A stretch of 64,000 bases of DNA from Eggerthella sp. YY7918 (GTDB lineage Bacteria > Actinomycetota > Coriobacteriia > Coriobacteriales > Eggerthellaceae), in the NCBI RefSeq assembly GCF_000270285.1, contig NC_015738.1, forward strand, positions 558,001 through 622,000, written 5' to 3'. The notes below the pieces were generated by a model. The model was given only the letters and a program-made list of their open reading frames with translations, was not told where the DNA came from and did no database searches. Positions 15,926 through 55,098 of this stretch are shown here, in pieces. The stretch's first letter is position 1. Each line of letters opens with the position of its first letter. Both the position numbers and the translations under genes were made by a program.

Positions 15926-18273
15926 TGGCCTCTCCCGCGAAAAGCCGTGCGGTGGTGCTGCATGAGGCGACGCGTGGCGGCGCTCATCCCGTCCGCGCTC
16001 AGGTGCTGGCCGCCGTGGCGCGCACCGCTGCTGCGTGCTTGTTGGTGGCGGGTCTTGCGTGGTGCTTTTCCGATTGTGTGACAACGCAGGAGAGCGTGCT
16101 TTTTGTGGCGGTTGCCTTCACGCTGACGTTTTTGCTGCAACTGCTTGCGATAGGGGAGCGTGGGGCCAAGCTTGTCCCTCTTGCCTGTGGAGTGACGGCG
16201 GTTGTGGCCGTCGTAGCGCTGGTGGCGGTTCCGTCGTTTCGCGACGGCCTGTTCGAATTTGGCAATCAGCTTATTACGCGCTACGACGAGGTGTTTAACG
16301 CCTACGTGCCTTTGTTGCCAGCACCGACGCAGGCCTCGGGGTGGTTATTCTACGCACTAGCGGGCGTGATGGCTGCCTTAGTAATCGATCTGCTTGTTCG
16401 CCGACGCATGGCTGTGGCGACCACCCTGTTTGTCTTTGTTGTGGGCGCGGTTGGCCTGTGGCTGCACGCGGGGCAAGCTCTTCCTGCACTCATCGTTTCA
16501 CTGATAGGATGGGCTATTGTGTGGCGGGGTTCGCTGGGGGGAACAACCACCTCGTTACGTGCAGCGGTGTTCGCGGGATGTTCCGCTGCCGTGGCATTGG
16601 TTCTTGCGGTAGGAGTGTCTTCGGTCTACGAGCCGAATCCGGCGGTCGATCGAGTTCGTGAAGGCTTTGTCGAAACCGTCGATACCCTGCGCTTTGGAAG
16701 CGACACCTTGCCCGAAGGCGATCTGACCAAAGCCCCCGCCATGAACCGTGGCGACGAAGAGCGCCTGACGCTTTCGTTCGATCAGGCGCTGGCTGACGAC
16801 ATGCTGCTGCGCGGGTTTGTGGGTGCAACCTATCATGCAGGGAAATGGGAGCCGCTTGATCACACCGCCTACGAAGGCGATTGGACGGGCATGTTCGGTT
16901 GGCTTTCGGCGCAGGGGTTTTCGCCGAACGAACAGCGTGCCGCGTTCGCTGACCAAAATGCTGTCCACGGAGCCGAGCAACCACCCGTTGCCTCGCTCTC
17001 TATTGAAACGACGGGAGCAAACCGCACCTATGTATATGCTCCAACCACCTTGCGGACGCTTGAAGGGGCGGATGTTATTGCGAACCGGGACGGCAGTATG
17101 TTGGCGCAAGGAGTTGCGGGTGCCGGTTCGTATACGATGGAGGTGGATGCGCTCGATGCGGCTGCGGATGTGGCCGTGACTCCGTCGTGGTTGATTTCCG
17201 CTTCGCAGAATGATCCTTATGCCGCAAGCGAAGCGGTATATCGTTCGTTTGTGCGCGAGCAGTATCTTGCTGTCGACAATGAGGATCGCGCCCTCGTCGA
17301 GACGCTGCTTTTCGATGACACCACCTGGAATAATGATAACCCCACGCCTGCGGCGGTTATCGCGCGCGTTCGCGCCATGCTCTCGACGCTCGCTTCTTAC
17401 ACCGACAGTCCGGCTCTGCCTCCTCGCAATGAAAACTTTCTCTCGTGGTTTTTGACGCAGGAGCACGAGGGGAATGCGGCCTACTTCAGCACTGCGGCAG
17501 TTTTGGCGTTTCGCGCACAGGATATTCCCGCTCGCTACGTTGAGGGGTACCGCGCCAATGTTGACACGCTTACGCGAGCCGCTGCTGATGACGGAGGGCG
17601 CGTGACGCTCACCTCGGCCGACGCTCATGCGTGGGTGGAAATATACTTGGATGGTATCGGATGGTCGCCCGTCGACGTCTCTCCCGGTTTTTACGATCAG
17701 CCTTATCAAGTGGAAGACGTTATCGAGGTCAACCAGAGTATGGCGGGCGATAGTGGAAACGATGCAAGCAATGCGGGTGCCTTGGGTGGCGAGGTAAACG
17801 AAGGGGATCGCGAACAAGATCAGCAGACCGCTGTGCGGCAGGTGGCAGGGGCGCTTCTTGCGATACTCGGTATGGTGGCGGCCCTGCTCTGTGGCGTGTT
17901 GGCAGTGCTTGAAGTTCGTCGGCACATCCATCGCGCGCGACGCAAAGAACAGTGCGAGTCGGACGATCAGGCTCTTTCGGTGCCCGCGTTGTTTGATACG
18001 CTCGGTGCCTACCTTGGCGCTGCGGGGGTGACGTTTAAGCCCGAGCATCCTCTTGATGCGACCTCGGCGGTTGTTGTTGCGTTCCCTGATGTTGCGCCCG
18101 AAGAGTACGAGCGCATTGTATCGCTGGTGCAGAAGTCGGTGTTCGGTTGCAAGGAATTGCGCGTGCATGAAATGCGCGCGTTGCGCCGCTTTGTCCTGCG
18201 GTTTAAGTCGGGGTTGAAGCCATCGCGCAACATTCGGGAGGCTTTTGCGCGGCGGTATAGGTTTGAGTTATGA
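15925..18273 (+). CDS. TgpA-like membrane protein with transglutaminase fold, catalytic Cys replaced
   Basis: 782 residues. Six or so N-terminal membrane helices (residues about 30-220), a large extracytoplasmic part, a transglutaminase-core fold near 500-600, one more membrane helix near 640 and a cytoplasmic tail. The core is clear: FRAQDIPARYVEGYRA, then the His and Asp blocks SADAHAWVEIY and WSPVDVSP. In homologues the nucleophile lies in a G-x-C-E-x-F motif; here the aligned segment is GNAAYFSTA, with Ala (GCG GCC) in place of Cys-Glu. Cysteine-protease or transglutaminase activity is therefore doubtful. Start and stop overlap both neighbours, which fits translational coupling. Confidence 0.88.
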   Translation: MASPAKSRAVVLHEATRGGAHPVRAQVLAAVARTAAACLLVAGLAWCFSDCVTTQESVLFVAVAFTLTFLLQLLAIGERGAKLVPLACGVTAVVAVVALVAVPSFRDGLFEFGNQLITRYDEVFNAYVPLLPAPTQASGWLFYALAGVMAALVIDLLVRRRMAVATTLFVFVVGAVGLWLHAGQALPALIVSLIGWAIVWRGSLGGTTTSLRAAVFAGCSAAVALVLAVGVSSVYEPNPAVDRVREGFVETVDTLRFGSDTLPEGDLTKAPAMNRGDEERLTLSFDQALADDMLLRGFVGATYHAGKWEPLDHTAYEGDWTGMFGWLSAQGFSPNEQRAAFADQNAVHGAEQPPVASLSIETTGANRTYVYAPTTLRTLEGADVIANRDGSMLAQGVAGAGSYTMEVDALDAAADVAVTPSWLISASQNDPYAASEAVYRSFVREQYLAVDNEDRALVETLLFDDTTWNNDNPTPAAVIARVRAMLSTLASYTDSPALPPRNENFLSWFLTQEHEGNAAYFSTAAVLAFRAQDIPARYVEGYRANVDTLTRAAADDGGRVTLTSADAHAWVEIYLDGIGWSPVDVSPGFYDQPYQVEDVIEVNQSMAGDSGNDASNAGALGGEVNEGDREQDQQTAVRQVAGALLAILGMVAALLCGVLAVLEVRRHIHRARRKEQCESDDQALSVPALFDTLGAYLGAAGVTFKPEHPLDATSAVVVAFPDVAPEEYERIVSLVQKSVFGCKELRVHEMRALRRFVLRFKSGLKPSRNIREAFARRYRFEL

Positions 18274-21200
18274 TAGCGTTTATGAAACAATTGCAGCATA
18301 GTGTGTGGAGCCTACCTGTCGCGAAAGTAGGAACAGGCGTAGTAGCTGCAATATTCGTCGGCGCTGCTGCCTTCGGTGCCATCCAGTTGAGCGGTCAGGC
18401 ATTTGACCCCAGCGCCTTTCTTGATGCGGGTTTCAACCGTCAAGCAAATCCTGAGTACAACACAGCCTACGATATCGATCATAGTGAGGCCGACGGCGAA
18501 GCCAATATGCAGGCCGATCAGGAGGAAACGCCCCAACCTGAGCAGCCCGATTTGCAGCAAGTCGACGCGTCGTCGTGGTCGCAAAACGAAGGATCGGGTT
18601 CTTCGGCATTGTCAGTGGTTGAGGGTCCGGCATCCGGCGGCACGGTGCTGGGCGGCGAGGGCGGCGAAGGCGGTACGCCTTCGGATAACCCGCTGACCGG
18701 CCCCGTGATAAACGGTGACGGCAACGGTAGCGGCGGGGATGGCACTGGCGAGGGGCAGGGTGGTAACGGCGACGGCAACCAAGGCGGCGGCGATACTCCG
18801 GGACCGATTCCCCCTACTGACCCCGACCCGCGCCCGAGCCTTCCCGACGACATGTACGGTAATGTGGGCTGGATCGAAACCCATCCCTTCCCCGAAGCTG
18901 GCATCGAACCCGAACCTGATGAAAATGGCGCGGTGTCTGTATCGTTTGCGGTATATACCGAAGAGTACATGCTGGAAGATCCCGATGAACTGGGCATGGA
19001 GCGTATCTACTACGGCATGTATCTGGATGATTGGAAGCTGCTCTGCGCAACCTATTTCTATGTCACGGTGAACGACACCATGTATCGCCTGGAAAATTAC
19101 AGTGACAACTTCAAAATAGGCGCCTTCCCCGAGGTGCTTACCTCCGACACATTGGAAGTGGACTTCTTCTTCCGACTCAATGTCAACGACAAGTGGCAGA
19201 CTGAACGCGTGAAGTATCTGGTCCATCCCAACAAGGTGATTGTGGAGGGATGGGACGGAACATCTCTCAAGACACGCTATCCCGCCGTGGGGCAGGAAGT
19301 ATATCTGGACGATGTGTTCTCCTCCATGCTGCCTGCGGGCACGGAGCCCGGCATGCCGCTTACCTGGGTGTTTCCCGGTTGGACGGATAACGAAGGCTCC
19401 TCGGCGCTCAGTACCACCTATCTTCCCCCGCGCAAGGGACGCATCGAGTTGCAACCGCTTCCCCTGGCTCCCGTGCCTCCTGAGTTTCAGGTGACCTATC
19501 AGTGGGGAAATCAGGCGCTTGTGGGGTACACGGGCACCTCGCCGGTGTGTGCGCTGCCCGAAGGCATCCAGTCCATCGACCTGCCGTTTGGTCGGACGGT
19601 TTCGGCGGAGGTTGTTCGCATCCCAGCGTCGCTGCGATACGGGGCGGGCGCTCTGGTGGCCTCGCGCGCCTATGAGGTGGACGAGGGCAACACCACCTTC
19701 CACATGCAGGACGGCATGCTGTTTGAAACGGAATCGGGCGCGCTCTACGGCATTCCCACGAACAAGGAAACCGTGGTTATCCCGCCGGGAACGCCGCTCA
19801 TTGTGTTCCCCGAAAACAACCACATTAAGCGTATCGAAGTGTCCGACGTGATTGAACCCGAATACTTCGAGGCGCTGCATGGTGCCGAAATCGCGGTGCC
19901 GGCCGATCGCTACATCGAATTTCTTGCTGCATGGGGCGCCCATCCAGGCGACCCATCGAACCGCCTCGTGGCCGATACGGGCGAGGAATTTGACTACGTC
20001 ATTCGCGATGGCGCGGCGTACACGACTGACGGCTCCACGCTGGTTGAGGTGCTGGACGGCGCGAAGGGAACGTTCTTTGTGCCCGAAGGCGTGCAGGTGG
20101 TGAAGGAAGGCGCTTTCGCAAAGTGTCCGCGCGTGGACACGGTGGTGCTGCCGCAGAGCGTTCGTGTGCTTGAGCGGGAAAGCCTGGTGAGCGAGGGTCT
20201 TACGCGCGTGCTGCTTGAAGGTACGACGCCACCGACGGTGGATGCCGAGACGTTCGGCACAGCGGAGGCTCACGTGCGGTTTGCGACCTACGACACCTAC
20301 CTGCGCTCGTGGAGTGAGCAGCTTGGCACCGCGGCGGCCGAAACGCTGCTTGCGGCGGATGACTTCACCACGCCTACGGTGAACGGATATCACCTGCTCA
20401 GCCTTGCGCCGCGGGCGAGTGATGGCACGCCGAATACGGCAGCGAACGAAACCATCATCCTGCGCGCCCCCGCCGATGCGACGCAGTTTGCGCCGGATAC
20501 GCTCGGCGACATCGCGCCGACGGCTCTTGGCGCAGGTGCCTTCGAGGGCTGCACCGCGCTTTCGGTGGTGGAGTTGCCTGCCAGCGTGAAAGTCATCGGT
20601 GATGACGCGTTTGCGGGATGCACGAACCTCGAGGCGTTCTTCTCGGCCTCGCCGGATATGATAGTCATCGGTGTGGGTTCGTTTGCGAACTGCGATGCGC
20701 TCAGGATGGCTGCCTTTAGCGCGCACGAAGGCCAGGTGGCCGACTGGAACGACCTCTACAGCAGCGGTTTCCGTGCCTTCGCCCCGTATGAGTCGGTGGG
20801 CTACGACGAGGGGTCGCCGGATAGATATACACTCATTTTTGAAACGATGTGTGACGACTTGCGCCTGGTACGGGGCTTTGGCGGTGTGCTGCTGTACGGC
20901 TACGCGACGATATACGACCAGCTCGTACTGCTGGGTGCTACCTCAGATGTGGGCGGGGTGGTGTCGCTTGAGCCCGGTACGGCGGTCATCTACTTTAACG
21001 TGTTCAAAGACTGCGCGAACCTCACCTCTATCGACGATGCGAGCATGGCTGACGTCGAGGAGATCTACGACTACGCGTTCGCTCGTTCGGGTTTGACGGA
21101 TATCGTCATCTCTCAAAAGGTGTTCTATATGGGAACGGGCGTGTTCGAGAGCTGCAGGGCGCTTGAACAGGTGGTATTCGAGGAGGGCCTCAACGATGAG

Positions 21201-21851
21201 GGCGATCTTGTCGGCCTTGATTGGGTGACCGAAGACATGTTTGTTGGTTGCACGAAGCTCACCAGCGTGACCTTCCCGTCAACCGTTCTGTGGGTGGACT
21301 ATGGCATATTCACCAACTCTGCTGTGCGCACCGTGGTGTTTACGAGCGAGGAAGCACCTATTTTGACCAGGCCGAATCCCACCTTCCCCTTCGTGTTCTC
21401 CGAGAATCCGCCGGATGACTTCAAGATTGAACTCGCAGGAGTGGCGGCCGGTCATAGGGACGACTACATTCAGTCGTGGAAGAATTCGCTCATCGCACGG
21501 CCCAACGGCTCTGAACTCACGCCTGAAGAGGACTTGCGCGCAACCAACCTGGCACGCGCCCTCTTCGGCTTGCCCGCGCTTGAAGCCTTGCCGGCGCCCG
21601 ACCCGCCCACGCCCCTTGAGGCCGCGACTGCGCCCGAAAAGTCGGCCGCGTCGCAAGAGGTTGCTCCACTTGACGAGCCTACTTCGCCCGAAAACCCCGC
21701 TTCGCTCAACACCGCCTCCGGGAATAATGAGACGGTTGACCCCCTTGCGCCAACGGGCGTGGAGGAAGAAAATGACAGTACTGCTCAGGATGTGGAACCT
21801 GAAAAAGATCCGCCGGAACGTATTGAGCAAACAGGTAAGAGAGAAGAATGA
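18270..21851 (+). CDS. Large BspA-type leucine-rich-repeat surface protein
   Basis: 1193 residues. A single N-terminal hydrophobic segment (VGTGVVAAIFVGAAAFGAI, about 21-40) can act as signal anchor. A low-complexity Gly/Asn/Pro-rich linker (about 115-195) follows. Repeats of the LRR_5/BspA kind recur from about 600 to 1100 (for example AFEGCTALSVVELPASVKVI and VFESCRALEQVVFEEGL). The C-terminus is a Pro/Glu/Ala-rich tail with no LPxTG signal and no terminal helix, so it is probably held by the N-terminal anchor. It overlaps the TgpA-like gene by 4 nt and the EAL gene by 4 nt, so it is part of one transcript. BspA repeats often bind host or bacterial surfaces; that is family knowledge only. 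Confidence 0.85.
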   Translation: MIAFMKQLQHSVWSLPVAKVGTGVVAAIFVGAAAFGAIQLSGQAFDPSAFLDAGFNRQANPEYNTAYDIDHSEADGEANMQADQEETPQPEQPDLQQVDASSWSQNEGSGSSALSVVEGPASGGTVLGGEGGEGGTPSDNPLTGPVINGDGNGSGGDGTGEGQGGNGDGNQGGGDTPGPIPPTDPDPRPSLPDDMYGNVGWIETHPFPEAGIEPEPDENGAVSVSFAVYTEEYMLEDPDELGMERIYYGMYLDDWKLLCATYFYVTVNDTMYRLENYSDNFKIGAFPEVLTSDTLEVDFFFRLNVNDKWQTERVKYLVHPNKVIVEGWDGTSLKTRYPAVGQEVYLDDVFSSMLPAGTEPGMPLTWVFPGWTDNEGSSALSTTYLPPRKGRIELQPLPLAPVPPEFQVTYQWGNQALVGYTGTSPVCALPEGIQSIDLPFGRTVSAEVVRIPASLRYGAGALVASRAYEVDEGNTTFHMQDGMLFETESGALYGIPTNKETVVIPPGTPLIVFPENNHIKRIEVSDVIEPEYFEALHGAEIAVPADRYIEFLAAWGAHPGDPSNRLVADTGEEFDYVIRDGAAYTTDGSTLVEVLDGAKGTFFVPEGVQVVKEGAFAKCPRVDTVVLPQSVRVLERESLVSEGLTRVLLEGTTPPTVDAETFGTAEAHVRFATYDTYLRSWSEQLGTAAAETLLAADDFTTPTVNGYHLLSLAPRASDGTPNTAANETIILRAPADATQFAPDTLGDIAPTALGAGAFEGCTALSVVELPASVKVIGDDAFAGCTNLEAFFSASPDMIVIGVGSFANCDALRMAAFSAHEGQVADWNDLYSSGFRAFAPYESVGYDEGSPDRYTLIFETMCDDLRLVRGFGGVLLYGYATIYDQLVLLGATSDVGGVVSLEPGTAVIYFNVFKDCANLTSIDDASMADVEEIYDYAFARSGLTDIVISQKVFYMGTGVFESCRALEQVVFEEGLNDEGDLVGLDWVTEDMFVGCTKLTSVTFPSTVLWVDYGIFTNSAVRTVVFTSEEAPILTRPNPTFPFVFSENPPDDFKIELAGVAAGHRDDYIQSWKNSLIARPNGSELTPEEDLRATNLARALFGLPALEALPAPDPPTPLEAATAPEKSAASQEVAPLDEPTSPENPASLNTASGNNETVDPLAPTGVEEENDSTAQDVEPEKDPPERIEQTGKREE

Positions 21852-23974
21852 TGTTGGAAACATTGCGCACTATGCTTATCGTCGACGATTCGAAGATCGA
21901 TCGCACGCTGCTGGCCAACATATTCAAGGATCAGTACGCCATTAAACAAGCGTGCGATGGACGCGAGGCGCTTGATGTTCTGCATCAAACAAAGGTCGAC
22001 ATCGTTGTGCTCGATATTTCTATGACCGGCATGGACGGGTTTGCGGTTATAGAAGCCATGCGCGCCGATCCGGCTCTGTCCGACATTCCCATCGTCGTGG
22101 CCACATCCGAACCCGCTCACGAGGAGGCGGCGCTTACTGATGGTGCTGACGATTTCATTGCCAAGCCCTTCAATCCGGTGGTGGTAAAGAAGCGCGTCGA
22201 GAACATCATCGTTAAGCATATGCTCGAACGCGAGCGCTTACAGATGGCCCTGCAGGAAACCGAACTCGAGCTGCGTTCGCTGGCCGACTCCGTGCCTGGC
22301 GGCATCTGCGTGTTTCGCCTTACTGGGGACGGCCGACTCGTTCTGGGATACTTTAACGACAGTTTTTATCAGCTGTTTGGGCGGACGCGTGCCGAAACCG
22401 CAGCCGAGTTTGGCGATGATATTCTGCAGCTGGTTTACAAAGAGGATCGAAAGCAGGTTCTGGCGGCTCTGCGAACGTCCGCGGCGACGGGGGAGCGTTT
22501 CGATACCGCTTTCCGCGTTGCTCTGCCCGACGGATCGCTTCGCTGGGTAAGCGCTTCGGCTGTCGAGTACAAACGTGTTGAAGACGAGCCGATATTCCGC
22601 AGCGTTATTATCGACATCACGGAAAGCAAAGAAAACGAACTTTTGGCTCAGCAGCGCGCCAAGGAGCTGCAGCACGCTGCCGAGCACGATCACTTGACGG
22701 GTCTGTATAATCGCACGGCGTTTTATCGCAAGACCAAGGAATATCTGGAACAGCACAGTGATATCGACCACGTTATTGTGCTGTTCGATATCGAGCGCTT
22801 CAAGATTATCAACGAGCTGTACGGCGGCGACAAGGGCGACGAGGTGTTGCTGGCCATCGCCGATGCGCTCAGCAAACATGTTGACGGCGTGGGCGTGTAC
22901 GGCCGGATGGAAAACGACCACTTCGCACTGTGCGTGCCTGCTGACGAACGCGTTGTCTACTCGTGTATGTCCTCAATTGAAAACTCGTTGGCCGTGACTG
23001 GCATCGATCGACAGATCATGCTGTATTACGGCGTGTATCAGGTGGTTGATCGCAGCATGCCGGTGGACATCATGTGCGACCGTGCGAATTTGGCGTTGCG
23101 CTCGGTAAAGGGCGACTACAACAAGCGCTATGCCCTTTACGATGCCAGCATGCACCAGTCGGTGTTGAACGAACACGAGCTGCGCAGCGAGGGCGACCAG
23201 GCTTTGAAAAATCGACAGTTCGAGGCGTTCTTGCAGCCCATCTTCAATCTGAGCGATGGAAGTTTGGCCAGCGCGGAGGCTCTGGTGCGCTGGCGGCATC
23301 CCGAAAAAGGCCTTGTGCCGCCGGATCAGTTCATTCCCTTCTTCGAAAACAGCGGCTTTATCGTGCGTCTGGACAGCTACATTCGCGAGTCGGTCTGCGA
23401 ACTCATTACAAACATGGGCAAGCAGGGCATTGAATGCCCGCCGGTGTCGGTAAATGTGTCAAGGTTGGAATTTTATGACCCGAAGCTCTGTCAAAATCTG
23501 CGCGATCTGGTGAATTACTACGATTTGGAGCCAGCGCGCATGCGACTGGAAATCACCGAGAGTGCCTATGCCGACAACGCGGCACAGTTGCTCGAGGCGA
23601 TGGACGAGCTTCAAGGTATGGGATTCGTCATGCTGATGGATGACTTCGGTGCTGGCTTCTCGTCGCTCAGCATGCTGCGTGATGTGCCCGTCGATATGAT
23701 CAAGCTCGACATGCGCTTTTTGAGCCACGGGGCCACGCTTGACCGCGAACGTGGCATTTTGAGCGCCATTGTACCCATGGCAAAATCCTTGTCGCTGCCC
23801 GTTATTGCCGAAGGAGTGGAAACGGCTGAGCAGGCCGAGTTCTTGAAGAGTATCGGCTGCGACTACGTGCAGGGATACCACTACGCTCGCCCTATGCCGC
23901 AGGATGAATTCGTCGAGGTGGTAGCGCGTTCTGGCTATACAGCTCGGAGTTTAGTGAGCGAAGGGGGGCGCTAG
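21848..23974 (+). CDS. Response regulator with PAS, degenerate GGDEF and EAL domains (c-di-GMP phosphodiesterase)
   Basis: 708 residues. Receiver domain 1-125 with IVDDSKIDRT and phospho-acceptor VVLDISMTGMDG. PAS/PAC domain about 140-265 (FRLTGDGRLVLGYFNDSFYQ). GGDEF domain about 275-430, but the signature is RMENDHF instead of RxGGDEF, so cyclase activity is unlikely. EAL domain about 445-700 with AEALVRW, NVSRLEF, LEITESAY, DDFGAGFSSL, IKLD and AEGVET, the metal- and substrate-binding set of active phosphodiesterases. It should hydrolyse c-di-GMP in response to phosphorylation of its receiver. The Hpt gene starts 2 nt after its stop codon. Confidence 0.93.
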   Translation: MMLETLRTMLIVDDSKIDRTLLANIFKDQYAIKQACDGREALDVLHQTKVDIVVLDISMTGMDGFAVIEAMRADPALSDIPIVVATSEPAHEEAALTDGADDFIAKPFNPVVVKKRVENIIVKHMLERERLQMALQETELELRSLADSVPGGICVFRLTGDGRLVLGYFNDSFYQLFGRTRAETAAEFGDDILQLVYKEDRKQVLAALRTSAATGERFDTAFRVALPDGSLRWVSASAVEYKRVEDEPIFRSVIIDITESKENELLAQQRAKELQHAAEHDHLTGLYNRTAFYRKTKEYLEQHSDIDHVIVLFDIERFKIINELYGGDKGDEVLLAIADALSKHVDGVGVYGRMENDHFALCVPADERVVYSCMSSIENSLAVTGIDRQIMLYYGVYQVVDRSMPVDIMCDRANLALRSVKGDYNKRYALYDASMHQSVLNEHELRSEGDQALKNRQFEAFLQPIFNLSDGSLASAEALVRWRHPEKGLVPPDQFIPFFENSGFIVRLDSYIRESVCELITNMGKQGIECPPVSVNVSRLEFYDPKLCQNLRDLVNYYDLEPARMRLEITESAYADNAAQLLEAMDELQGMGFVMLMDDFGAGFSSLSMLRDVPVDMIKLDMRFLSHGATLDRERGILSAIVPMAKSLSLPVIAEGVETAEQAEFLKSIGCDYVQGYHYARPMPQDEFVEVVARSGYTARSLVSEGGR

Positions 23975-23975
23975 C

Positions 23976-24326
23976 ATGGACACTATATCTGAACAACTGA
24001 CCGCACTGGGAGTTGATATCGAACCGACGCTCAAGCGCTTCTATGGCGACTGCGATTTACTGGTGGAAATGCTGCACGAGTTTGCCCGCGAGGATTTGGC
24101 CGAACAGCTGCCCGAGGCGCTTTCGCAGGGCGACTATACGCAGATAGAGCTCATCGCGCATTCAGTGAAGGGCACGTCGGCAAACTTGGGGTTGGTTGAG
24201 TTAAGCAATCGATGCAACGATGCGGTACAGGCTGTGCGAGCGGGCACATTTGACGATATGGATAAGCTGGTGAATGCAGTTGTCGAACAGTATCGTACGG
24301 TGCGCGCAGGTATTTCGCAGCTCTGA
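23976..24326 (+). CDS. Stand-alone Hpt phosphotransfer protein
   Basis: 116 residues, essentially one Hpt four-helix domain with the phospho-histidine motif IAHSVKGTSANLGLVEL near residue 55. It is too short for any other domain. It is the last gene of the run starting with the hybrid kinase, whose receiver could pass phosphate to this protein and from here to the receiver of the EAL protein just upstream. That chain is inferred from gene order and domain types. Confidence 0.93.
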   Translation: MDTISEQLTALGVDIEPTLKRFYGDCDLLVEMLHEFAREDLAEQLPEALSQGDYTQIELIAHSVKGTSANLGLVELSNRCNDAVQAVRAGTFDDMDKLVNAVVEQYRTVRAGISQL

Positions 24327-24373
24327 TATCATGGGCACCCTGAATAAACCCTCGTCTAGAGAGGCTGTTTGCC

Positions 24374-25381
24374 ATGTCTCACAATGATGAGCCGATCTTT
24401 CGTGATGGGTTGTTTCGTCAGAAACGCAAGCATGGAAGCTATCGAGTGGTTGATCCACCTGTGCTTGAGGCTCCGGTGGCTGATACGCATACGCACCTTC
24501 AGCTGTTGCCCGATCCTGGACTTGCACTTGCGCGCTGTGCCGCTCATCACGTTGAGTTCGTGTGTACGATCGTCGACGTATTCGAAGATGGCGCGACGAC
24601 GTTCGATCGCCTGAATTCATGGAAGTTTGAAGCGGCCGCCGACGCAAAAAAGATAACGGACTGGTGTTGAAGCAAGCCTTTCCCGCGCGTGCCGCGGGTG
24701 CGAATCATCGTGGGGTGTCATCCTCACAATGCGAAATACTACGATAAGAGTCTTGAGGTTGAGCTGCGCGAACGCTTGGCTGATCCGCGGGTGAGTGCGC
24801 TTGGCGAGATCGGGCTTGACTACCACTACGACTTTTCGCCGCGCGATGTCCAGCGTGAGGTGTTTCGCCGCCAGGTTCGTATTGCGCATGAGTGTGGTTT
24901 GCCGGTGGTGTTGCATGTGCGCGAGGCCCACGACGATGCGCTTGCTCTTATGCGCGAGGAGGGTTGGCCGGAAGCGGGTACGCTTCTGCATTGCTTCAAC
25001 CTTGATGGAGAGGTGCTTAAACCATGGGTCGAAGCGGGATGCTACGTGGCATTTGGCGGTCCGCTGACATTTAAAAATGCCGATGAGGTTCGCGAAGCGG
25101 CCAAGCAGGTTCCGCTTGATCGACTGCTTACCGAAACGGACGCGCCGTACATGACACCCGAACCTATGCGCGGTATGACGTGCGGGCCGGAGCATGTCAT
25201 ATTTACGGCGGCACGGTTGGCTGAAGTACGTGGTTGTGCGCCGGGTGACGAGCGCAAACAGCTGCTTGATCAGCTTATGGAAAACGCGCGGGCGCTGCTT
25301 GATCGTCCGGCAACCTCCTGGCAAAAGGGTGAGGCCGCGGCGTTTTATACGAAGGCGTTCGACGCGCACGAGGGGGAGTGA
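24374..25381 (+). CDS. TatD-family metal-dependent hydrolase interrupted by one in-frame UGA (possible selenoprotein)
   Basis: 335 codons if the TGA at 24668-24670 is read through. The part before it has the first metal motif VADTHTHLQLL; the part after has VGCHPHNAKYYD, ALGEIGLDYHYD, VVLHVREAHDDA, TLLHCFNLDGE and TETDAPYMTPEP, so all metal-ligand blocks of the TatD deoxyribonuclease family are kept and the frame is the same on both sides. The codons around the stop read Asp-Trp-Cys-(UGA)-Ser-Lys-Pro. A hairpin with a CGUGC loop sits 17 nt after the UGA, as in bacterial SECIS elements. The alternative is a nonsense mutation in a pseudogene or two separate chains with reinitiation at GTG 24689. 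The protein is longer than E. coli TatD (about 260 residues) because of the N-terminal and middle segments. Confidence 0.75.
24668..24698 (+). other. In-frame UGA with SECIS-like hairpin in the tatD-like gene
   Basis: TGA at 24668-24670. Downstream, CCCGCG (24682-24687) pairs perfectly with CGCGGG (24693-24698), leaving the five-base loop CGUGC with G and U in it. The loop begins 17 nt after the UGA. In the formate dehydrogenase of the same window the loop begins 18 nt after its UGA and the stem is also 6 bp. This geometry is within the known range for bacterial SECIS elements (established for this element class). In a GC-rich genome a 6 bp GC stem can also arise by chance. Confidence 0.5.
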
Positions 25382-25386
25382 GGCCG

Positions 25387-26007
25387 ATGAATCGTTTGAT
25401 CATCTCGGGATCGCCGCGGGCGCGGGGACGCAGCGCGGGATTGGCCGAGGCCCTTCGTTTTGCTTTCGATGAAGAGGGGGCGGGCAAAACCGACCTCGTT
25501 TTGCTGTCGGATGTTCATATTGCACCCTGTACGGGTTGCGAAGCCTGCGCGGCCAACATCGGTCGCAACGAGCTGTACTGCATCATTGCCGACGACATGG
25601 TGCGCGTGCGTACTCTATTGAACGCCTGTGACGAGCTGGTGCTGGTGTCGCCCGTGTACTTTGCTGGTGCTCCTGCGCAGCTCAAGTCGTTTCTTGATCG
25701 CCTCCAGCCCTACTTTTATGCGAATTGGCGTGCGAAACCAAAACGCCCGGCCAGCCTTTATGTGGTGGGCGAGGGTGGGGATCCTCATGGGTTTGTGCCG
25801 CTTGTCGGCGAGGTTCGTTCGGCGCTTGCCGTTGCGGGTTTTGCCCTTAAGGACGTGCATGATTGGGTGGAGCTTATCAGTCCGGACGGAGCGCTTCCTG
25901 AGGGTGCCGATCCGGTGCACGATGGTCGCGTGCATCCGGCTTCCACTTACACCTGCACCAGCCCCGATGGTACGTGGCCTCGTTCGGTGCAACAAGGGGA
26001 GGTCTGA
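25387..26007 (+). CDS. NADPH-dependent FMN reductase / flavodoxin-fold family protein
   Basis: 206 residues. N-terminal LIISGSPRARGRSAGLAEAL is the FMN-phosphate binding loop of the NADPH-dependent FMN reductase family; IAPCTGCEACAANIGRNELYC is the cysteine-bearing segment common in anaerobe iron-sulfur flavoproteins, and VLVSPVYFAGAPAQLKSFLDR follows. I chose ATG 25387; a GTG at 25378 overlaps the stop of the TatD-like gene. The last base of its stop is shared with the ATG of rsmA. Physiological electron acceptor unknown. Confidence 0.85.
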   Translation: MNRLIISGSPRARGRSAGLAEALRFAFDEEGAGKTDLVLLSDVHIAPCTGCEACAANIGRNELYCIIADDMVRVRTLLNACDELVLVSPVYFAGAPAQLKSFLDRLQPYFYANWRAKPKRPASLYVVGEGGDPHGFVPLVGEVRSALAVAGFALKDVHDWVELISPDGALPEGADPVHDGRVHPASTYTCTSPDGTWPRSVQQGEV

Positions 26008-26900
26008 TGGCCAAGCTTTCCCCTTTGGCAAGTGTCGCAGAAACGCGGAGTGTGCTTGAGGCGCATGGACTTACCACGAAGTATTCACTCGGCCAGAATT
26101 TCCTGATCAACGATGGCATTTTGCAAAAGATTGTTGCGTTGGCTGATCTTACGAATGCCGATCAGGTGCTTGAAGTAGGTCCCGGCATCGGCACGCTTAC
26201 CGTGGCGCTTTTGAAATGCGCAGGGCGCGTCGTCTCAGTTGAACGCGATGCCGATTTGCCAGCTGTGTTGACGCAGACGCTTGCCCCCTGGACCGACCGC
26301 TTTACGTTGATTGAAAAAGATGCGCTGGATCTGCAGGCAGATGATCTTCCCTTTGCGCCTACGAAGCTTGTGGCAAATTTGCCCTACGCCGTGGCCGCCA
26401 CAGTGGTACTTGACTACTTCGAGCGCTTCCCGTCACTTGAGAGCGCCACGGTCATGGTACAGAAGGAAGTGGCTGATCGTATGGCCGCTACGCCCGGGAC
26501 CAAAAATTATGGAGCCTACACGGTGAAGCTGCGCCTCTACGCCGAGCCTGCGGGCCGTTTTGCCGTCGGCCCCGGCAACTTCTTCCCGCCTCCGCGTGTG
26601 GAAAGCGCTGTGTTGCGTCTCAACCGGCGTATCGTTTGCGACGATGCCGGTGTGCCGCTTAACGCTGCAGCCATCAAAGCTTCCTGCACCATGGCAGAAG
26701 CATCGTTCACAAATCGTCGCAAAACGCTTGCAAACTCCTGCAAGACGTACTTCGCCTCCCGAGGGCAGGAGGGTGCATGCGTTGTCGCAGCGCTTCTGTG
26801 CATCTTTGAGCAGGCGGGTATCGACTCCAAACGCCGTGGCGAAACGCTCACTCTCAACGAGTTTATAAACCTTGGTCGTGCCTATCAGAAGTTCGCATAG
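26007..26900 (+). CDS. rsmA: 16S rRNA (adenine(1518)-N6/adenine(1519)-N6)-dimethyltransferase
   Basis: 297 residues from ATG 26007, which overlaps the preceding stop as TGATG. Motifs of KsgA/RsmA are in order: TKYSLGQNFLIND, VLEVGPGIGTLT, VSVERDADL, LVANLPYAVAATVV, VMVQKEVADRMAATPGTKNY and NFFPPPRVESAVL. It dimethylates two adenines in helix 45 of 16S rRNA. In many Gram-positives veg lies close downstream of this gene; here the two are separated by the convergent AlbA_2 gene. Confidence 0.96.
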   Translation: MAKLSPLASVAETRSVLEAHGLTTKYSLGQNFLINDGILQKIVALADLTNADQVLEVGPGIGTLTVALLKCAGRVVSVERDADLPAVLTQTLAPWTDRFTLIEKDALDLQADDLPFAPTKLVANLPYAVAATVVLDYFERFPSLESATVMVQKEVADRMAATPGTKNYGAYTVKLRLYAEPAGRFAVGPGNFFPPPRVESAVLRLNRRIVCDDAGVPLNAAAIKASCTMAEASFTNRRKTLANSCKTYFASRGQEGACVVAALLCIFEQAGIDSKRRGETLTLNEFINLGRAYQKFA

Positions 26901-33540: not shown

Positions 33541-36240
33541 TATCACGATAGATGGCATCGCGGTGCAGGTTGCCGAAGGCTCGACGATTTTGGATGCGGC
33601 TCAGGCGGCGGGAATTTCCATTCCTACCCTGTGTTTCTTGAAGGAGCGTAGCGCTATCGGTTCGTGCCGCGTGTGCGTGGTGGATGTGGAAGGCGAAGAC
33701 TATCCCGTGCCTTCCTGCACGACGGTTGTACGTGAGGGCATGGTGATAAGCACCGATTCGCCGCGCATTACCGCATATCGTCGCATTGCGCTTGACTTGA
33801 TTGCTTCTGACGTGGCGGCGGGGGGCGCGTGCGAAACGTGCTCGTCTGACGAATGGGGCGAGCTTGGTGAGCTGTGCCGCACGTATGGGTAACCGAGCCC
33901 TCCTATGCGGCGCCCGTGCGCACGAACGTGTCGGTGCTGGACGACAATCCCTTCCTGTCCTACGACCCTGCTCGGTGCATTCGTTGCCAGCGTTGTGTGG
34001 GCGCCTGCAACAAGGCGGCGTACAACCATACGCTGCATGCGGGCAAGCGCGGCCTGCGCACCACGATTGAGGCGCCGTTCGGTAAAGACTGGCTTGCGAC
34101 GGATTGTGAATCGTGCGGAACCTGTGCTCAGGCCTGTCCGACCGGCGCGCTCACCATTAAGCGTCGTCGTGCATACCATGCCCAGGAAGCGCAGCGCGTA
34201 CGCACCACGTGTCCGCACTGCGGGGTGGGCTGTCAGCTTGATCTGGTGGTGCAGGACGGGCGGATTGTGGATGCTTTAGGCGCGCAGGGGCCGTCGAACA
34301 AGGGTCTGTTGTGCGTGAAGGGGCGCTCGGCAAGCTTTGACTTCGTGGATGCAGCCGACAGGCTTCGCACCCCGCTTATCAAAAACCCTGCAACGGGAGA
34401 ATTTGAGTCGGCTACCTGGGATGAGGCGCTCGATCTGGTGGCGCGTCGCTTCACGGAGCTGCGCGACGAGTATGGCGGGCAATCGTTGGCCGCATTTGCG
34501 TGTTCGCGTTCGACCAATGAAGACATTTACCTTTTCCAAAAAATGGCGCGCACGGCGTTGGTGACCAACAACGTCGACTGCTGCGCCCGTGTTTGACACG
34601 CTCCCACTGTCGCCGGTCTGGCGACCATGCTTGGTTCGGGTGCGATGACGAACTCAATTGAAGATATTACGCGTCAGTCGGATGTCATTATGCTGGTGGG
34701 TTCCAACCCCGAGGAAGCTCATCCGGTCATCGGCATGCAGATTCGCGCTGCGGTTGAGCGCGGGTGCAAGCTTATTGTGGTGGATCCGCGCGACATTGGA
34801 CTGGCGGCCAGCGCCGATATCCATCTGAAACTGCGTCCGGGAACGAATGTGGCGTTTGCGAACGGAGTGGTGAACTACCTTATCCTCAATCACCTGTACG
34901 ACGAGCGTTTTATACGGGAACGTACGGAAGGGTTCGAGATTCTTGCCGCGACGGTACGCGACTACACGCCCGAGCGCGTGGAGGATATCTGCGGCATTGA
35001 CCAGCGCGATCTTATTGCGGCGGCAAAAATGTACGCGTCTGCAGGCGCGGCGGCCATCGTCTACTGCTTGGGTGTAACTGAACACTCTACCGGCACCGAT
35101 GGCGTGATGGCGCTGTCGAACATCGCTATGGTCACGGGTAACCTCGGTCGCCCCGGCGGCGGTGTGAATCCGCTTCGTGGCCAAAACAACGTGCAGGGTG
35201 CATGCGATATGGGCGCGGGACCCGACGACCTGCCGGGCTATCAGAAGGTGGACAACGAGCAGGCCGCAGAGAAGTTCGAGCAAGCTTGGGGCGTGGCGCT
35301 GCCGCGCTGGCGCGGGCGCAAGGCAACCGAATGTTTCCCGGCCATGATCGACGGGACCATCAAGGGAGTGTTCCTGTTTGGCGAAGACCCCGTGCGCACC
35401 GATCCTGACACCAATCATGTTATTCATGCTCTCGAATCGGTGGACTTTCTGGTGGTTGACGACCTGTTCATGACCGAGACGGCGAAATACGCCGACGTTA
35501 TTCTGCCGGGGCGCAGCTATGCGGAAAAGGAAGGCACCTTCACCAACACCGAGCGACGCGTGCAGCGGGTGCGCAAGGCAGTTGAAGGGCCGGAGGGCGC
35601 GCGGCTTGACACGGACATCTTCATCGAGCTGATGAACCGCATGGGCTATGCGCAACCTCAGATGGACGCGGCCCAGGTCATGGATGAGATTGCGTCGCTC
35701 ACGCCGTCGTACGGCGGCGTGAGTCACGCTCGGCTGGATGGCGAAGAAGTGGCTGGCCAGGGATTGCAGTGGCCTTGCCCCCATACCGACCATCCTGGCA
35801 CGCCCATTTTGCATATGAGTGGCTTTTCGTTGGGATTAGGTGCGTTTGCGACGCCGGAGTATCAGCCTTCGACGGAGCTGCCCGATGACGACTATCCACT
35901 GGTGCTCACAACGGGGCGCGTGCTGTACCAGTACAATGCGTGTGCCATGACGGGACGTACTGAGGGCTTAGACCAGATTTCCGGTCGTTCGTTCATCGAG
36001 CTCAACGAACGTGATGCGGAAGCCTTGGGCGTGATGGACGGCGATCGCGTGCGCGTGGCATCGCGTCGCGGCCAGATTGAGACGACAGCGCGTGTGTCGG
36101 ACAAGACGAATCCCGGCCAGACGTGGATGCCCTTCCACTTCCAAGACGGCAACAGCAATTGGCTGACCATCGCGGCGCTTGATCGCGTGTCGAAGGCTCC
36201 TGAGTATAAGGTTTGTGCCGTGAAGGTGGAAAAGGCATAA
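33533..36240 (+). CDS. fdhF: Selenocysteine-containing formate dehydrogenase with NuoG-like Fe-S domains (one frameshift in this copy)
   Basis: About 902 residues if one base is added at 33887-33889 and the UGA at 34594-34596 is read as selenocysteine. N-terminus: [2Fe-2S] domain (PTLCFLKERSAIGSCRVCVV) and a NuoG-like segment; then two ferredoxin-type clusters (CIRCQRCVGACN, CESCGTCAQACPTGA); then the molybdopterin domain with its own cluster (CPHCGVGC), the active site NVDCCARV-Sec-HAPTVAG, and a C-terminal dinucleotide-binding domain. It oxidises formate or reduces CO2 using Mo/W-bis-MGD. Together with the overlapping upstream flavoprotein it should form a soluble NAD(P)-coupled complex. 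The Cys-less 'ACETCSS' region lacks the usual His ligand of the NuoG cluster. Confidence 0.92.
33884..33892 (+). other. Frameshift site in fdhF
   Basis: The Fe-S N-terminal frame reads Cys-Arg-Thr-Tyr-Gly and hits TAA at 33890-33892. One extra G in the GGG run (33887-33889) would join it to the frame Val-Thr-Glu-Pro-Ser-Tyr, which continues the family sequence without a gap. Either a one-base deletion (mutation or read error) or, less likely, a -1 recoding site. A GTG at 33874 could start a separate downstream chain. Confidence 0.8.
34594..34625 (+). other. Selenocysteine codon and SECIS hairpin of fdhF
   Basis: TGA 34594-34596 stands at the position of the metal-binding Sec/Cys in CCARV-x-HAPTVAG. 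GTCGCC (34609-34614) pairs with GGCGAC (34620-34625) around the loop GGUCU (34615-34619), the same loop bases as in E. coli fdhF, beginning 18 nt after the UGA. Confidence 0.95.
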
Positions 36241-37490: not shown

Positions 37491-40286
37491 GTGGACAAGC
37501 GGGAGGGGCGCTATGTCAATTATGAAATGCAAAAAGCCCCACGGGGGGGGGGATTCTGTGTAGCGAGGAAGCGGCCGGAAAACACGCGGCCGTCCACTGG
37601 TTTGCGCGCTGCGCTTGCCATCGCCCCGGCGAAGGCCTTCCTCGTCCTTGCGGCGCTGGCACTGGCGCTGACGGCATCTGTTGTGCCCGCTTCGGCGGCT
37701 CACGCCGCAGACCTCTACGACGTGTGGGTCGGAGGCACGCAGGTCACCAGCGATAACGCATCGAATTTGGTAGACGGAATGTCCTATGATGACGCGAGCA
37801 AGACGCTTACGTTTAGCAAAACGGTAACCGTAAACGGTGATCCCAATATCACAGCTGGTGCGGGTATCTATGCAGGAAACAATAGCAATCTGACGATCAA
37901 TGTGGAAGAAGCCGTCACATTGACCGTCGAGGGTACAGCAAAAAGTAATTCATCTGCCGGCGTGTACGTAGAGGGCTCGCTTACCGTGAAGGGGAAAGGC
38001 GTGCTTGTTTCCAGTGGCAAGGCCACAGGGGCAATTGGCGGCATGGGCATCAGCGCAGGTGGAAACATTTCCATCGAAGACGGCGTTTGGATAACGGCAT
38101 CCGGGGTCGGATCGCACACGGGGCATGGCATGGTTGCCGCCAGCAGCGTGACGGTATCTACGACCGGCACGGTGGAAGCCACAGGCTCCTGGCCCTCCGG
38201 GAGCGCATCCGGCACGAACAGCTCGGGAATCTATGCGAACAACGTTCAGATAGACAACGGCACCGTTGTGCTGTCGGGTAATAAGTGGGCGACCGGGTCG
38301 GGTACCGGCGTGGTGACGCCGACCTTCTATCCATCTGCCTGGGTTACGGCCAGCACCAAGGCGGACGGAACCGATTCGGAGCAGTACGATCCGGCCAAAA
38401 TCGGCACCTATAAATACCTGAAAGCAGAGCCCGGCCATTACCATCCGCTTTGCGGTGCCACGTGCGGCCACAACCCGGCGCACCCCTCGGTTCTGTACCA
38501 GCCGCTGCCTGCCGGCTACACGGGAGGGGAGCTGCCCGCGGGCAGCTACTACTTGACGGGCGACGTCGACCTGTCGAAAACCATCGAAGTTACGTCCGGC
38601 ATCGTGAACCTGTGCCTAGACGGCCACAAGCTCGATGCGCATGCGCGGTTCGGGGTGATCCAGATAAACGGTATAAGAACCCTCCTCAATGTCTGCGATG
38701 GCAGCCAGGCTGGCGGCGGTGCCATTACCGGCGGCAAGGCGGATAATGGCGGCGGCGTGTACATGCTTGACGGCACGCTCAACCTCTTCGGCGGCTCCGT
38801 GTCGAACAACACTGCCGCCGGTAGCGGAGGCGGCATCTATGCAAGTAAAGGCGCGCTCAACGTTTTCGGCGGCTCCGTGTCGAACAACACTGCCGGTAGC
38901 GGAGGCGGCGTCTATAAGGACGGAGGCGTTTTCGACCTTCATGATGGCTCGGTGTCGGACAACGTTGCGACGTTCGAGGGGGGCGGCGTGAACGTGAATA
39001 GAAGCACGCTCAGACTCTCTGGCGGTTCCGTGTCGGGCAACACCGCCAATAACCATGGCGGAGGTGTGAACGTGGATGAAGGAGGCGTGCTCGTTCTCTC
39101 CGGCGGATCGATAGAAGACAACATAGCGGGATATGCGGCGGCAGGTGTGTTCGTCGGAGAGCGAGGCGACATGTCATGCTTCGGCTCGCCCACCATGGCA
39201 AACAACGTCATTGCAGGGGCGAACTTGCCCAGCAACGTGTGGCTCGCTGCAAACAAGACCATCTCGATCGACGGTCCTTTCGCCCCCACAGCGCCCATCG
39301 GCGTGACCACGAAGACCAAGCCGACGGCGACCGCGCCCGTGCCGATCACGATGGGAAGATCCGCTGATTACAGCGCGCACTTCGCAAGCGACGAGGGGCA
39401 CGGAGTGCAAAACAGCGGTTCGGGCGGAAGCCAGGTGGTGCAGATCGTGCCCAACCTGAAGGAGATCGCGAATCCCGATCCGGTTACCGGCATCGCCAAC
39501 GGCACATCGCTTGCCGATATCGTGTCGGATCTGAACGACAATGCAATCGCAACTGCGAAAACCACGGGCGGCAACTACGATGCAAAGGTGACATGGGACG
39601 GGTCGACGGCGGACCCGGCCTACGATCCGTCCAAAAAGGAAGAGCAGACCTTCTCCGTCGAAGGCAAGGTAACGCTGCCCGCGGGCATCGCGAACACGGA
39701 GAGCGTGACGGAGGCGGCAACTATCAGCGTCACCGTCAAGGCCAAGGGCAAGCCCAGCAAGCCCACCGTCGACGAGCTGGCGATAGCTGAGGTGCGGCTT
39801 TCCTGCAAAGACGACGATGCGCACAATAAGGACTTTCCGGTAGATGCCGGCGCGATGACGGTCGGCGAGGTGCAAGAGCCGACTCCGGGCACGTACACCT
39901 GCGAGGTTGTCTTCGATGGCGCCCCCTACCTTGCCCAGATGAATGCCGGCGCGGCCCTGCAGCATCGCCTGGTAAAGGGGGAGTCGCCCAAGACGATCAC
40001 GTTCACCTACGACGATTTTGATATGAGGTGGTATCCGGATGGGCACTATCCCTCCCTTGTGGATGGGATCCTCGTATTCAAGGTAACCTGTGCAAACGAG
40101 CCCGGTCCCAACCTCACATCCGATCCGAGCGACGTGAACGGCGGCTCGTCCGGCAAGACGCTGGCGAAAACGGGCGACGGTGCCATGCAAATCACGGCCC
40201 TCACGGCTCTTGTGGCGGCCGCGGTCGCAGCCGGGTGCGCGGCCTTCGCCACCCGCCGCCGTGCTTCCCGAAGGCGCATGAGGTAG
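37491..40286 (+). CDS. Beta-helix surface protein with LAxTG sorting signal, reading frame governed by a G10 tract
   Basis: The frame is open from GTG 37491 (931 residues). A signal peptide (FLVLAALALALTASVVPASA, cut near AHA) is followed by a region of short beta-strands and then about five repeats of the form GGSVSNNTAxGSGGGIY, typical of right-handed parallel beta-helices. The C-terminus has LAKTGDGA, a hydrophobic helix and RRRASRRRMR, a sortase signal. The start is unusual: the best-placed ATG (37513, behind GGGAGGGG) is in a different frame and ends at TAG 37561-37563; one more G (or two fewer) in the run at 37543-37552 puts it in frame with the whole protein. The version here may thus be switched off or made only from the weak GTG or ATG 37527. 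Function probably adhesion; no ligand can be named. Confidence 0.85.
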   Translation: MDKREGRYVNYEMQKAPRGGGFCVARKRPENTRPSTGLRAALAIAPAKAFLVLAALALALTASVVPASAAHAADLYDVWVGGTQVTSDNASNLVDGMSYDDASKTLTFSKTVTVNGDPNITAGAGIYAGNNSNLTINVEEAVTLTVEGTAKSNSSAGVYVEGSLTVKGKGVLVSSGKATGAIGGMGISAGGNISIEDGVWITASGVGSHTGHGMVAASSVTVSTTGTVEATGSWPSGSASGTNSSGIYANNVQIDNGTVVLSGNKWATGSGTGVVTPTFYPSAWVTASTKADGTDSEQYDPAKIGTYKYLKAEPGHYHPLCGATCGHNPAHPSVLYQPLPAGYTGGELPAGSYYLTGDVDLSKTIEVTSGIVNLCLDGHKLDAHARFGVIQINGIRTLLNVCDGSQAGGGAITGGKADNGGGVYMLDGTLNLFGGSVSNNTAAGSGGGIYASKGALNVFGGSVSNNTAGSGGGVYKDGGVFDLHDGSVSDNVATFEGGGVNVNRSTLRLSGGSVSGNTANNHGGGVNVDEGGVLVLSGGSIEDNIAGYAAAGVFVGERGDMSCFGSPTMANNVIAGANLPSNVWLAANKTISIDGPFAPTAPIGVTTKTKPTATAPVPITMGRSADYSAHFASDEGHGVQNSGSGGSQVVQIVPNLKEIANPDPVTGIANGTSLADIVSDLNDNAIATAKTTGGNYDAKVTWDGSTADPAYDPSKKEEQTFSVEGKVTLPAGIANTESVTEAATISVTVKAKGKPSKPTVDELAIAEVRLSCKDDDAHNKDFPVDAGAMTVGEVQEPTPGTYTCEVVFDGAPYLAQMNAGAALQHRLVKGESPKTITFTYDDFDMRWYPDGHYPSLVDGILVFKVTCANEPGPNLTSDPSDVNGGSSGKTLAKTGDGAMQITALTALVAAAVAAGCAAFATRRRASRRRMR
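37543..37552 (+). repeat. Poly-G (10) tract near the start of the surface protein gene
   Basis: Ten consecutive G between the ribosome site/ATG 37513 and the signal peptide. Runs of this length are prone to slipped-strand length change. Frame arithmetic: G10 leads ATG 37513 to a stop after 16 codons, whereas G11 or G8 joins it to the long frame. Confidence 0.85.
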
Positions 40287-54863: not shown

Positions 54864-54893
54864 TTGCGTTCAAGATACGGGGGGGGGTACTAT
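54864..54893 (+). promoter_or_regulatory. Promoter with a nine-G tract in the -35/-10 spacer
   Basis: TTGCGT (54864-54869) and TACTAT (54888-54893) are separated by 18 nt, of which the last nine are G (54879-54887). Transcription would start close to 54900, exactly at the 5' end of the riboswitch. A change in G number alters the spacer (G8 would give the optimal 17). Confidence 0.6.
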
Positions 54894-54898
54894 ATTTT

Positions 54899-54974
54899 CA
54901 CGAGCAAACCTGCCGGAAAGCAGGGACGCAAAGCTATAGGGGCCGAACCCCTTGGGGCGGCTAGCCAGTTGCGA
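54899..54974 (+). ncRNA. c-di-GMP-I (GEMM) riboswitch
   Basis: The class I aptamer is recognised from GCAAACCTGCCGGAAAGCAG (54904-54923), then GGACGCAAAGC and, after the P3 arm (GGGGCC/CCCCTTGGGGC), GGCTAGCCAGTTGC. P1 pairs GCAA with TTGC; P2 CCTGC/GCAGG carries a GGAAA-type tetraloop. These are the conserved bases of the family. It lies 125 nt before the start of a LAxTG surface protein gene, with an intrinsic terminator between, so c-di-GMP should switch transcription of that gene. Whether the ligand turns it on or off cannot be read reliably. Confidence 0.93.
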
Positions 54975-54991
54975 TCATCATTCCTGTCGTG

Positions 54992-55030
54992 AGCGACCCA
55001 AAACCTATGGCAAAGGCGGGTCGCTTTTCT
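54992..55030 (+). terminator. Leader terminator of the riboswitch (expression platform)
   Basis: AGCGACCC (54992-54999) and GGGTCGCT (55018-55025) form an 8-bp stem followed by TTTTCT. It stands between aptamer and start codon, so it is the likely regulated terminator. Confidence 0.8.
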
Positions 55031-55098
55031 GCTGTGACTGCTTGAATCGAAGTAGGGCGCGCGAACTAACGCGACGCCATAAGGGGAAGGCAGCGCAT

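Follow-up and report, generated by a model that had tools for sequence, protein, structure and literature searches.

We find that the tatD gene in the analyzed stretch of Eggerthella sp. YY7918 DNA (64,000 nt, referred to here as the window) carries an in-frame UGA at codon 99 that almost certainly encodes selenocysteine (Sec), a conclusion as firm as comparison of sequences can make it. The best explanation of the data as a whole, which we consider highly probable, is that tatD is a selenoprotein gene in which UGA 99 is read as Sec and that this Sec has a role outside hydrolysis. SelB and Sec-tRNA would decode the UGA, steered by a selenocysteine insertion sequence (SECIS) hairpin 12 to 28 nt downstream, and read-through would yield a full-length TatD protein of 335 amino acids (aa). 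Sec encoding is supported by the conserved UGA, a covarying hairpin, exchange of Sec for Cys, co-occurrence with the selenocysteine machinery, and selection on both sides of the UGA. An earlier reading of the window from its letters alone (the sequence-only reading) had proposed a selenoprotein here, and these lines of evidence bear it out.

That reading had described a TatD gene broken by a single UGA, in frame on both sides and with its metal-binding motifs kept, and all of this was confirmed. The UGA is the sole in-frame stop before the gene end, and under translation table 11 the gene falls into two open reading frames (ORFs), 24374-24670 (98 aa) and 24689-25381. The read-through protein matched the Pfam family TatD_DNase (PF01026) with an E value of 2.7e-60 and 204.3 bits (cut-off, 27), while it missed the curated cut-off of TIGR00010 (YchF/TatD family DNA exonuclease) at 192.3 versus 206 bits. 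All six metal ligands (H39, H41, E145, H181, H206, and D256) are intact, and the part of tatD 3' of the UGA is under purifying selection. As both ORFs exist on paper, the locus could in principle make two polypeptides, one of 98 aa and one of 230 aa started at the GTG at 24689. Such a division would break the barrel immediately ahead of the strand bearing the HPH motif, the GTG coincides with the hairpin's invariant loop codon, and homologues of the Cys type are uninterrupted. We therefore reject a split gene as having next to no probability.

We read the column corresponding to UGA 99 in 130 homologues from a sample of 138 Eggerthellaceae genomes, 136 of which had a tatD match. The eight genomes left out were two without a match (G049 and G093), one with a weak match (G013), and five (G082, G104, G108, G122, and G124) with no stop listed within their tatD matches. 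The column held UGA in 27 homologues, Cys in 8, and a Cys-Cys shifted by one residue in 2 (G083 and G084, counted as Cys type for a total of 10); the remaining 93 had neither, displaying an unrelated linker of variable length in place of the motif. The UGA type spanned 12 genus codes, and UAA or UAG was found at the column in no homologue. The alignment thus came out for Sec. A nonsense mutation in a decaying gene would likewise leave an in-frame stop, and 103 of the 130 homologues do lack a stop at this column. But an identical UGA in 27 genomes, never replaced by another stop codon, is not what decay would produce; nor are compensatory hairpin changes, purifying selection on the sequence 3' of the UGA, or a tRNA for Sec (tRNA-Sec) in each of the 27 genomes. 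The homologue comparison refutes this explanation, whose probability we regard as negligible.

The motif around the UGA reads [CTS]-U-[GS]-x-P-x-P-[RC]-V-[PS]-R, where the Pro at +3, which lies outside the hairpin, is present in all 27 UGA-type homologues. The residue before Sec is Cys in 19, including the window gene, Thr in 7, and Ser in 1. The Cys-Sec pair noted earlier was therefore upheld for the window and 18 other genes, but not as an essential feature. The motif is less strict in the Cys types: PxP is retained in G029 and G060, and the three members of genus g3 carry Ile ahead of the Cys. The Cys codon preceding the UGA was TGT in 19 of 19 genes, compared with a TGT share of 0.17 among their Cys codons. 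Across the UGA-type genes, the base before the UGA was T in 24 of 27, and these genes otherwise usually encode Cys with TGC. This bias is perhaps a recoding context.

Bacterial SECIS elements are hairpins placed just after the UGA, with a G among the first two bases of the loop, and the tatD hairpin follows this rule. The sequence-only reading was right about the 5-base loop containing GU; its distance of 17 nt holds for the loop, whereas the stem begins 11 nt past the UGA. A gapless alignment of all 27 UGA-type homologues (26 distinct sequences) gave YCCGYG-CGUGY-CRCGGR, again with the stem 11 nt after the UGA. Four of the six base pairs are invariant and the other two show compensatory changes: pair 15-31 is CG in 19 sequences and UA in 7, and at pair 19-27 CG occurs 23 times and UA 3 times, neither pair showing a broken combination. 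The stem is also coding, such that a Val-to-Ile/Met change at +10 accompanies the third base of +4, and an Arg-to-Cys change at +6 accompanies the third base of Pro +8. Three codons are fixed in all 27 genes, namely CCG for Pro +5, GTG for Val +7, and CGG for Arg +9 (background share of CGG, 0.16). The family pattern of UGA plus hairpin occurred once in the window and not at all in 100 shuffles. An Rfam search of 24300-25400 returned no match at E values up to 1.

The organism was expected to carry the selenocysteine machinery, and its genome indeed contains SelB (378.5 bits), tRNA-Sec (71.4 bits), SelA (541.1 bits), and SelD (367.7 bits), all above their cut-offs and lying within about 8 kb. 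The SelD gene (L207, C1:1491460-1492392) itself has an internal TGA and may encode a selenoprotein. Among the UGA-type genomes, tRNA-Sec was found above our threshold of 60 bits in 27 of 27 and SelB above its cut-off in 25 of 27, whereas 9 of the 10 Cys-type genomes have neither SelB nor tRNA-Sec (G029 is the sole exception). Eight further genomes had tRNA-Sec matches above the gathering score at 47.1 to 50.5 bits; these are short (best, 76 nt versus 92 to 95) and look like ordinary tRNAs. Congeneric species showed several combinations. Genus g24 has three UGA species and one (G060; 77% complete) with Cys and no machinery found; g36 pairs a UGA genome (G085) with one lacking both motif and machinery (G086); and g13 pairs a UGA genome (G040) with one having neither (G039; 84% complete). 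In g9, two UGA genomes and one Cys genome all have the machinery, and in g37 the machinery is present and the motif absent in three of three. In Adlercreutzia faecimuris (G058), the gene order is metG, tatD, tRNA-Sec, selB. This genome has two tRNA-Sec genes (C1:727224-727316 and 1021199-1021291), of which one lies between tatD and selB, and G036, G114, and G127 likewise list two above 60 bits.

A predicted structure, built on an alignment of 52 sequences, had a mean predicted local distance difference test score (pLDDT) of 96.2. Its best structural relatives are TatD nucleases; the list shows TatD and phosphotriesterase-type barrels, and other folds are possible. In the model, Sec99 sits in a loop (residues 95 to 107) between a helix (75 to 94) and a barrel strand (108 to 114). 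In TIM barrels, loops preceding strands face away from the active site. Because the metal ligands are carried at the opposite ends of the strands in this topology, Sec99 would lie on the barrel face opposite the metal site, a placement by topology and not by distance. It is conceivable that Sec contributes to hydrolysis itself, for example, as a metal ligand or nucleophile, and the six ligands are kept in all 27 UGA-type orthologues. All 103 homologues lacking Sec keep these ligands equally, so they are intact in all 130 ordinary homologues, and Sec survives in two paralogues lacking every one of these ligands. With the modeled position of the loop also pointing away from the ligand-bearing strand ends, we reject a catalytic Sec as very improbable.

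These paralogues came to light when a covariance model was run against 395 genomes of the order. It gave 29 matches, the 27 described above plus G112 and G114, in which the UGA gene (L143 and L155) is an additional copy, both genomes also having an ordinary tatD without UGA. The two copies are 51% identical to each other and 30 to 31% identical to the window protein. The HTH and HPH motifs and the E, H, H, and D ligands are all replaced (e.g., GCHPHNA by GVAPENA or GVSPDHA), yet the peptide UGAPxPRVPRI and the hairpin are retained, although the outermost pair in L143 is C-A, leaving 5 bp. Constraint is weaker but visible, with nonsynonymous (dN) and synonymous (dS) divergences of 0.44 and 1.15. 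The paralogues adjoin rho and transaldolase genes, with rho following them downstream on the opposite strand. Among ten other neighboring ORFs, six had no Pfam family and the rest were hydrolase, glycerophosphotransferase, and LytR-type genes. Across 15 genomes of the paralogue genus, no further genome had a paralogue at a comparable score.

Sec thus persists where Thr, Ser, or Ala precedes it, and also in a paralogue without a metal site. It is dispensable for TatD as such, because 93 of 130 homologues have neither Sec nor Cys at the column. A separate redox or binding role is suggested mainly by the paralogue, which still has Sec although all six of its metal ligands are gone, and also by the replaceable Cys neighbor and the back-of-barrel position. 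Sec would then be an exposed redox or ligand-binding center, not catalytic in phosphodiester hydrolysis, which may pair with Cys98 where that residue is present and with a partner thiol elsewhere. We give an even chance to a broader interpretation, in which a housekeeping TIM-barrel hydrolase has become the scaffold of a new selenium center and the back-face Sec loop is a module independent of hydrolysis. In at least two species this module would survive in a pseudo-TatD paralogue devoid of the metal ligands, whose only evident conserved center is Sec. Alternatively, the Sec residue could have no job at all and the UGA could act as a selenium-responsive switch, stopping translation at 98 aa under selenium shortage and lowering FMN_red and KsgA by polarity. 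The position of tatD before FMN_red and ksgA in most loci read would suit a switch, as would the loose conservation of Cys98 and the many relatives without the motif. But the replacement of Sec by Cys in nine genomes without the machinery keeps a similar side chain and loses the switch, the Pro at +3 is invariant outside the hairpin, and the paralogues retain UGA although rho runs on the other strand. We consider such a switch unlikely.

It is also important to point out several observations that weigh against a selenoprotein with a separate Sec role. SelB or tRNA-Sec is present in the genomes of 46 of the 93 homologues without the motif, and G029 has Cys at the column despite having the machinery; because of both, Sec is evidently not needed for TatD. 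Fisher values for the machinery comparison (2.2e-8 and 8.0e-8) ignore relatedness, and tree-based independent pairs of UGA against machinery gave two in the same direction, none opposite, and two with no difference (P = 0.5, small sample). Two shuffle measures of the hairpin did not stand out, with 134 of 500 shuffles scoring as high for pairs with a double change and 500 of 500 for further pair types, because four of the six pairs never vary. One pair of UGA and Cys loci (L052 and L054) had high dN/dS values (0.071/0.09 before the UGA and 0.051/0.12 after). Finally, only two genomes are known to have the paralogue, and the suggested role of Sec is drawn from its position and these two paralogues only.

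The motif probably arose within the Eggerthellaceae, which would make this a young, lineage-specific selenoprotein, because it is missing from 20 loci picked among the best-scoring ones in other families of the class. Within g9, g13, g24, and g36, congeners differ in having UGA, Cys, or neither, and a quick tree built on 122 of the 130 homologues, with the linker left out, required seven changes between UGA and non-UGA, gain and loss not being distinguished. The exact UGA-plus-hairpin pattern was found at 30 loci in 84,980 genomes. Eight had no TatD context and 22 were TatD type (20 orthologues and 2 paralogues), the latter in records named Eggerthellaceae or Coriobacteriia or matched to genomes of the family. 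Pattern-positive records included Eggerthella, Gordonibacter, Paraeggerthella, Adlercreutzia, Ellagibacter, and Enteroscipio. The covariance model gave six matches in 396 genomes drawn from the phylum, all in Eggerthellaceae; more diverged hairpins could escape both this model and the exact pattern. When 396 genomes of the class were searched with the protein, the matches listed included one with TGA outside the family (G433).

The features of the locus and its surroundings are collected below. In most family loci read, metG precedes tatD; in the window, Hpt and EAL/GGDEF genes are found there instead. The region from 18270 to 24326 encodes BspA-type leucine-rich-repeat, EAL/GGDEF/response-regulator, and Hpt proteins, and similar Hpt and EAL genes lie upstream of tatD in Gordonibacter pamelaeae (L028 and L139). 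The tatD match of L028 (G066) stops at residue 264 of 335, as if its 3' end were cut or rearranged. We rejected the idea that FMN_red serves Sec as a dedicated redox partner, as it adjoins tatD with and without UGA alike and is uninformative. Elsewhere in the window, a c-di-GMP-I riboswitch (54893-54976; 51.8 bits) overlaps the start of a 1,149-aa ORF (54952-58401), and a 931-aa ORF (37491-40286) had no NCBIfam match at E values up to 0.001.

Coordinates of the tatD locus and related features in the window
Feature	Position	Strand	Remarks
tatD	24374..25381	+	335-aa selenoprotein if UGA 99 is Sec; ORF read-through, profile match, homologues, model
Cys98 codon, TGT	24665..24667	+	Directly 5' of the Sec codon
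In-frame UGA, putative Sec99	24668..24670	+	Same column UGA in 27 of 130 homologues
SECIS-like hairpin, CCCGCG-CGUGC-CGCGGG	24682..24698	+	6 bp (24682-24687 with 24693-24698); 5-nt loop 24688-24692
FMN_red/flavodoxin-fold gene	25378..26007	+	Directly 3' of tatD; neighbor also of tatD without UGA
ksgA (rsmA)	25974..26900	+	Last gene in the order metG-tatD-FMN_red-ksgA, which is common in the family
Formate dehydrogenase alpha	33874..36240	+	Known selenoprotein family; UGA 34594-34596, SECIS-like hairpin 34609-34625

The sequence-only reading knew of no selenoprotein in the TatD family, and this agrees with what we found. TatD is not among the 119 prokaryotic selenoprotein families or subfamilies of a 2026 inventory, and the word is absent from its main text (PMC13188914). 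None of the five matching NCBIfam models (June 2026) is labeled a selenoprotein, and our literature search found no TatD selenoprotein, although papers beyond the literature searched might mention one. A passage of PMC3037878 names TatD, solely as a gene near archaeal SelB-like genes. Our results would add a metal-dependent hydrolase family to the list of selenoproteins, in known gut bacteria and with a trait that seemingly arose inside one bacterial family. Standard translation would cut UGA-type TatD at residue 98 or start it after the UGA. The alternation among congeners makes it testable with paired species why Sec comes and goes, and the metal-less paralogues offer a clean route to the role of Sec once the hydrolase is gone.

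A close comparison is with the formate dehydrogenase (FdhA) of the same window, which was said to have its loop at 18 nt. It does so, with a 6-bp stem 12 nt after the UGA and the loop GGUCU after 18 nt. Both genes thus have a UGA followed by a 6-bp stem and a 5-nt loop with GU at loop positions 2 and 3, which we take to be the part recognized by SelB; they differ in the loop (GGUCU versus CGUGC) and in the distance of the stem (12 versus 11 nt). The Sec of FdhA binds Mo or W, according to PMC13188914, whereas neither is a cofactor of TatD. Compared with the TatD nucleases YcfH and TM0667 (PF01026), the window protein has a 13-residue Sec loop before its third barrel strand. Neighboring Cys and Sec are familiar from the GCUG tail of thioredoxin reductase, and 19 of the 27 tatD genes resemble such vicinal proteins, some reading GCUG or RCUG. 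Other vicinal Cys-Sec proteins include KCU-star/DUF466, SaoL, and HgcA, as given in Table 1 of PMC13188914, which also describes many selenoprotein families as homologous to thiol oxidoreductases or as having redox motifs. The TatD protein differs from the vicinal proteins in that its Sec would lie inside a loop of an (alpha/beta)8 hydrolase and in that the Cys can be replaced by Thr, Ser, or Ala.
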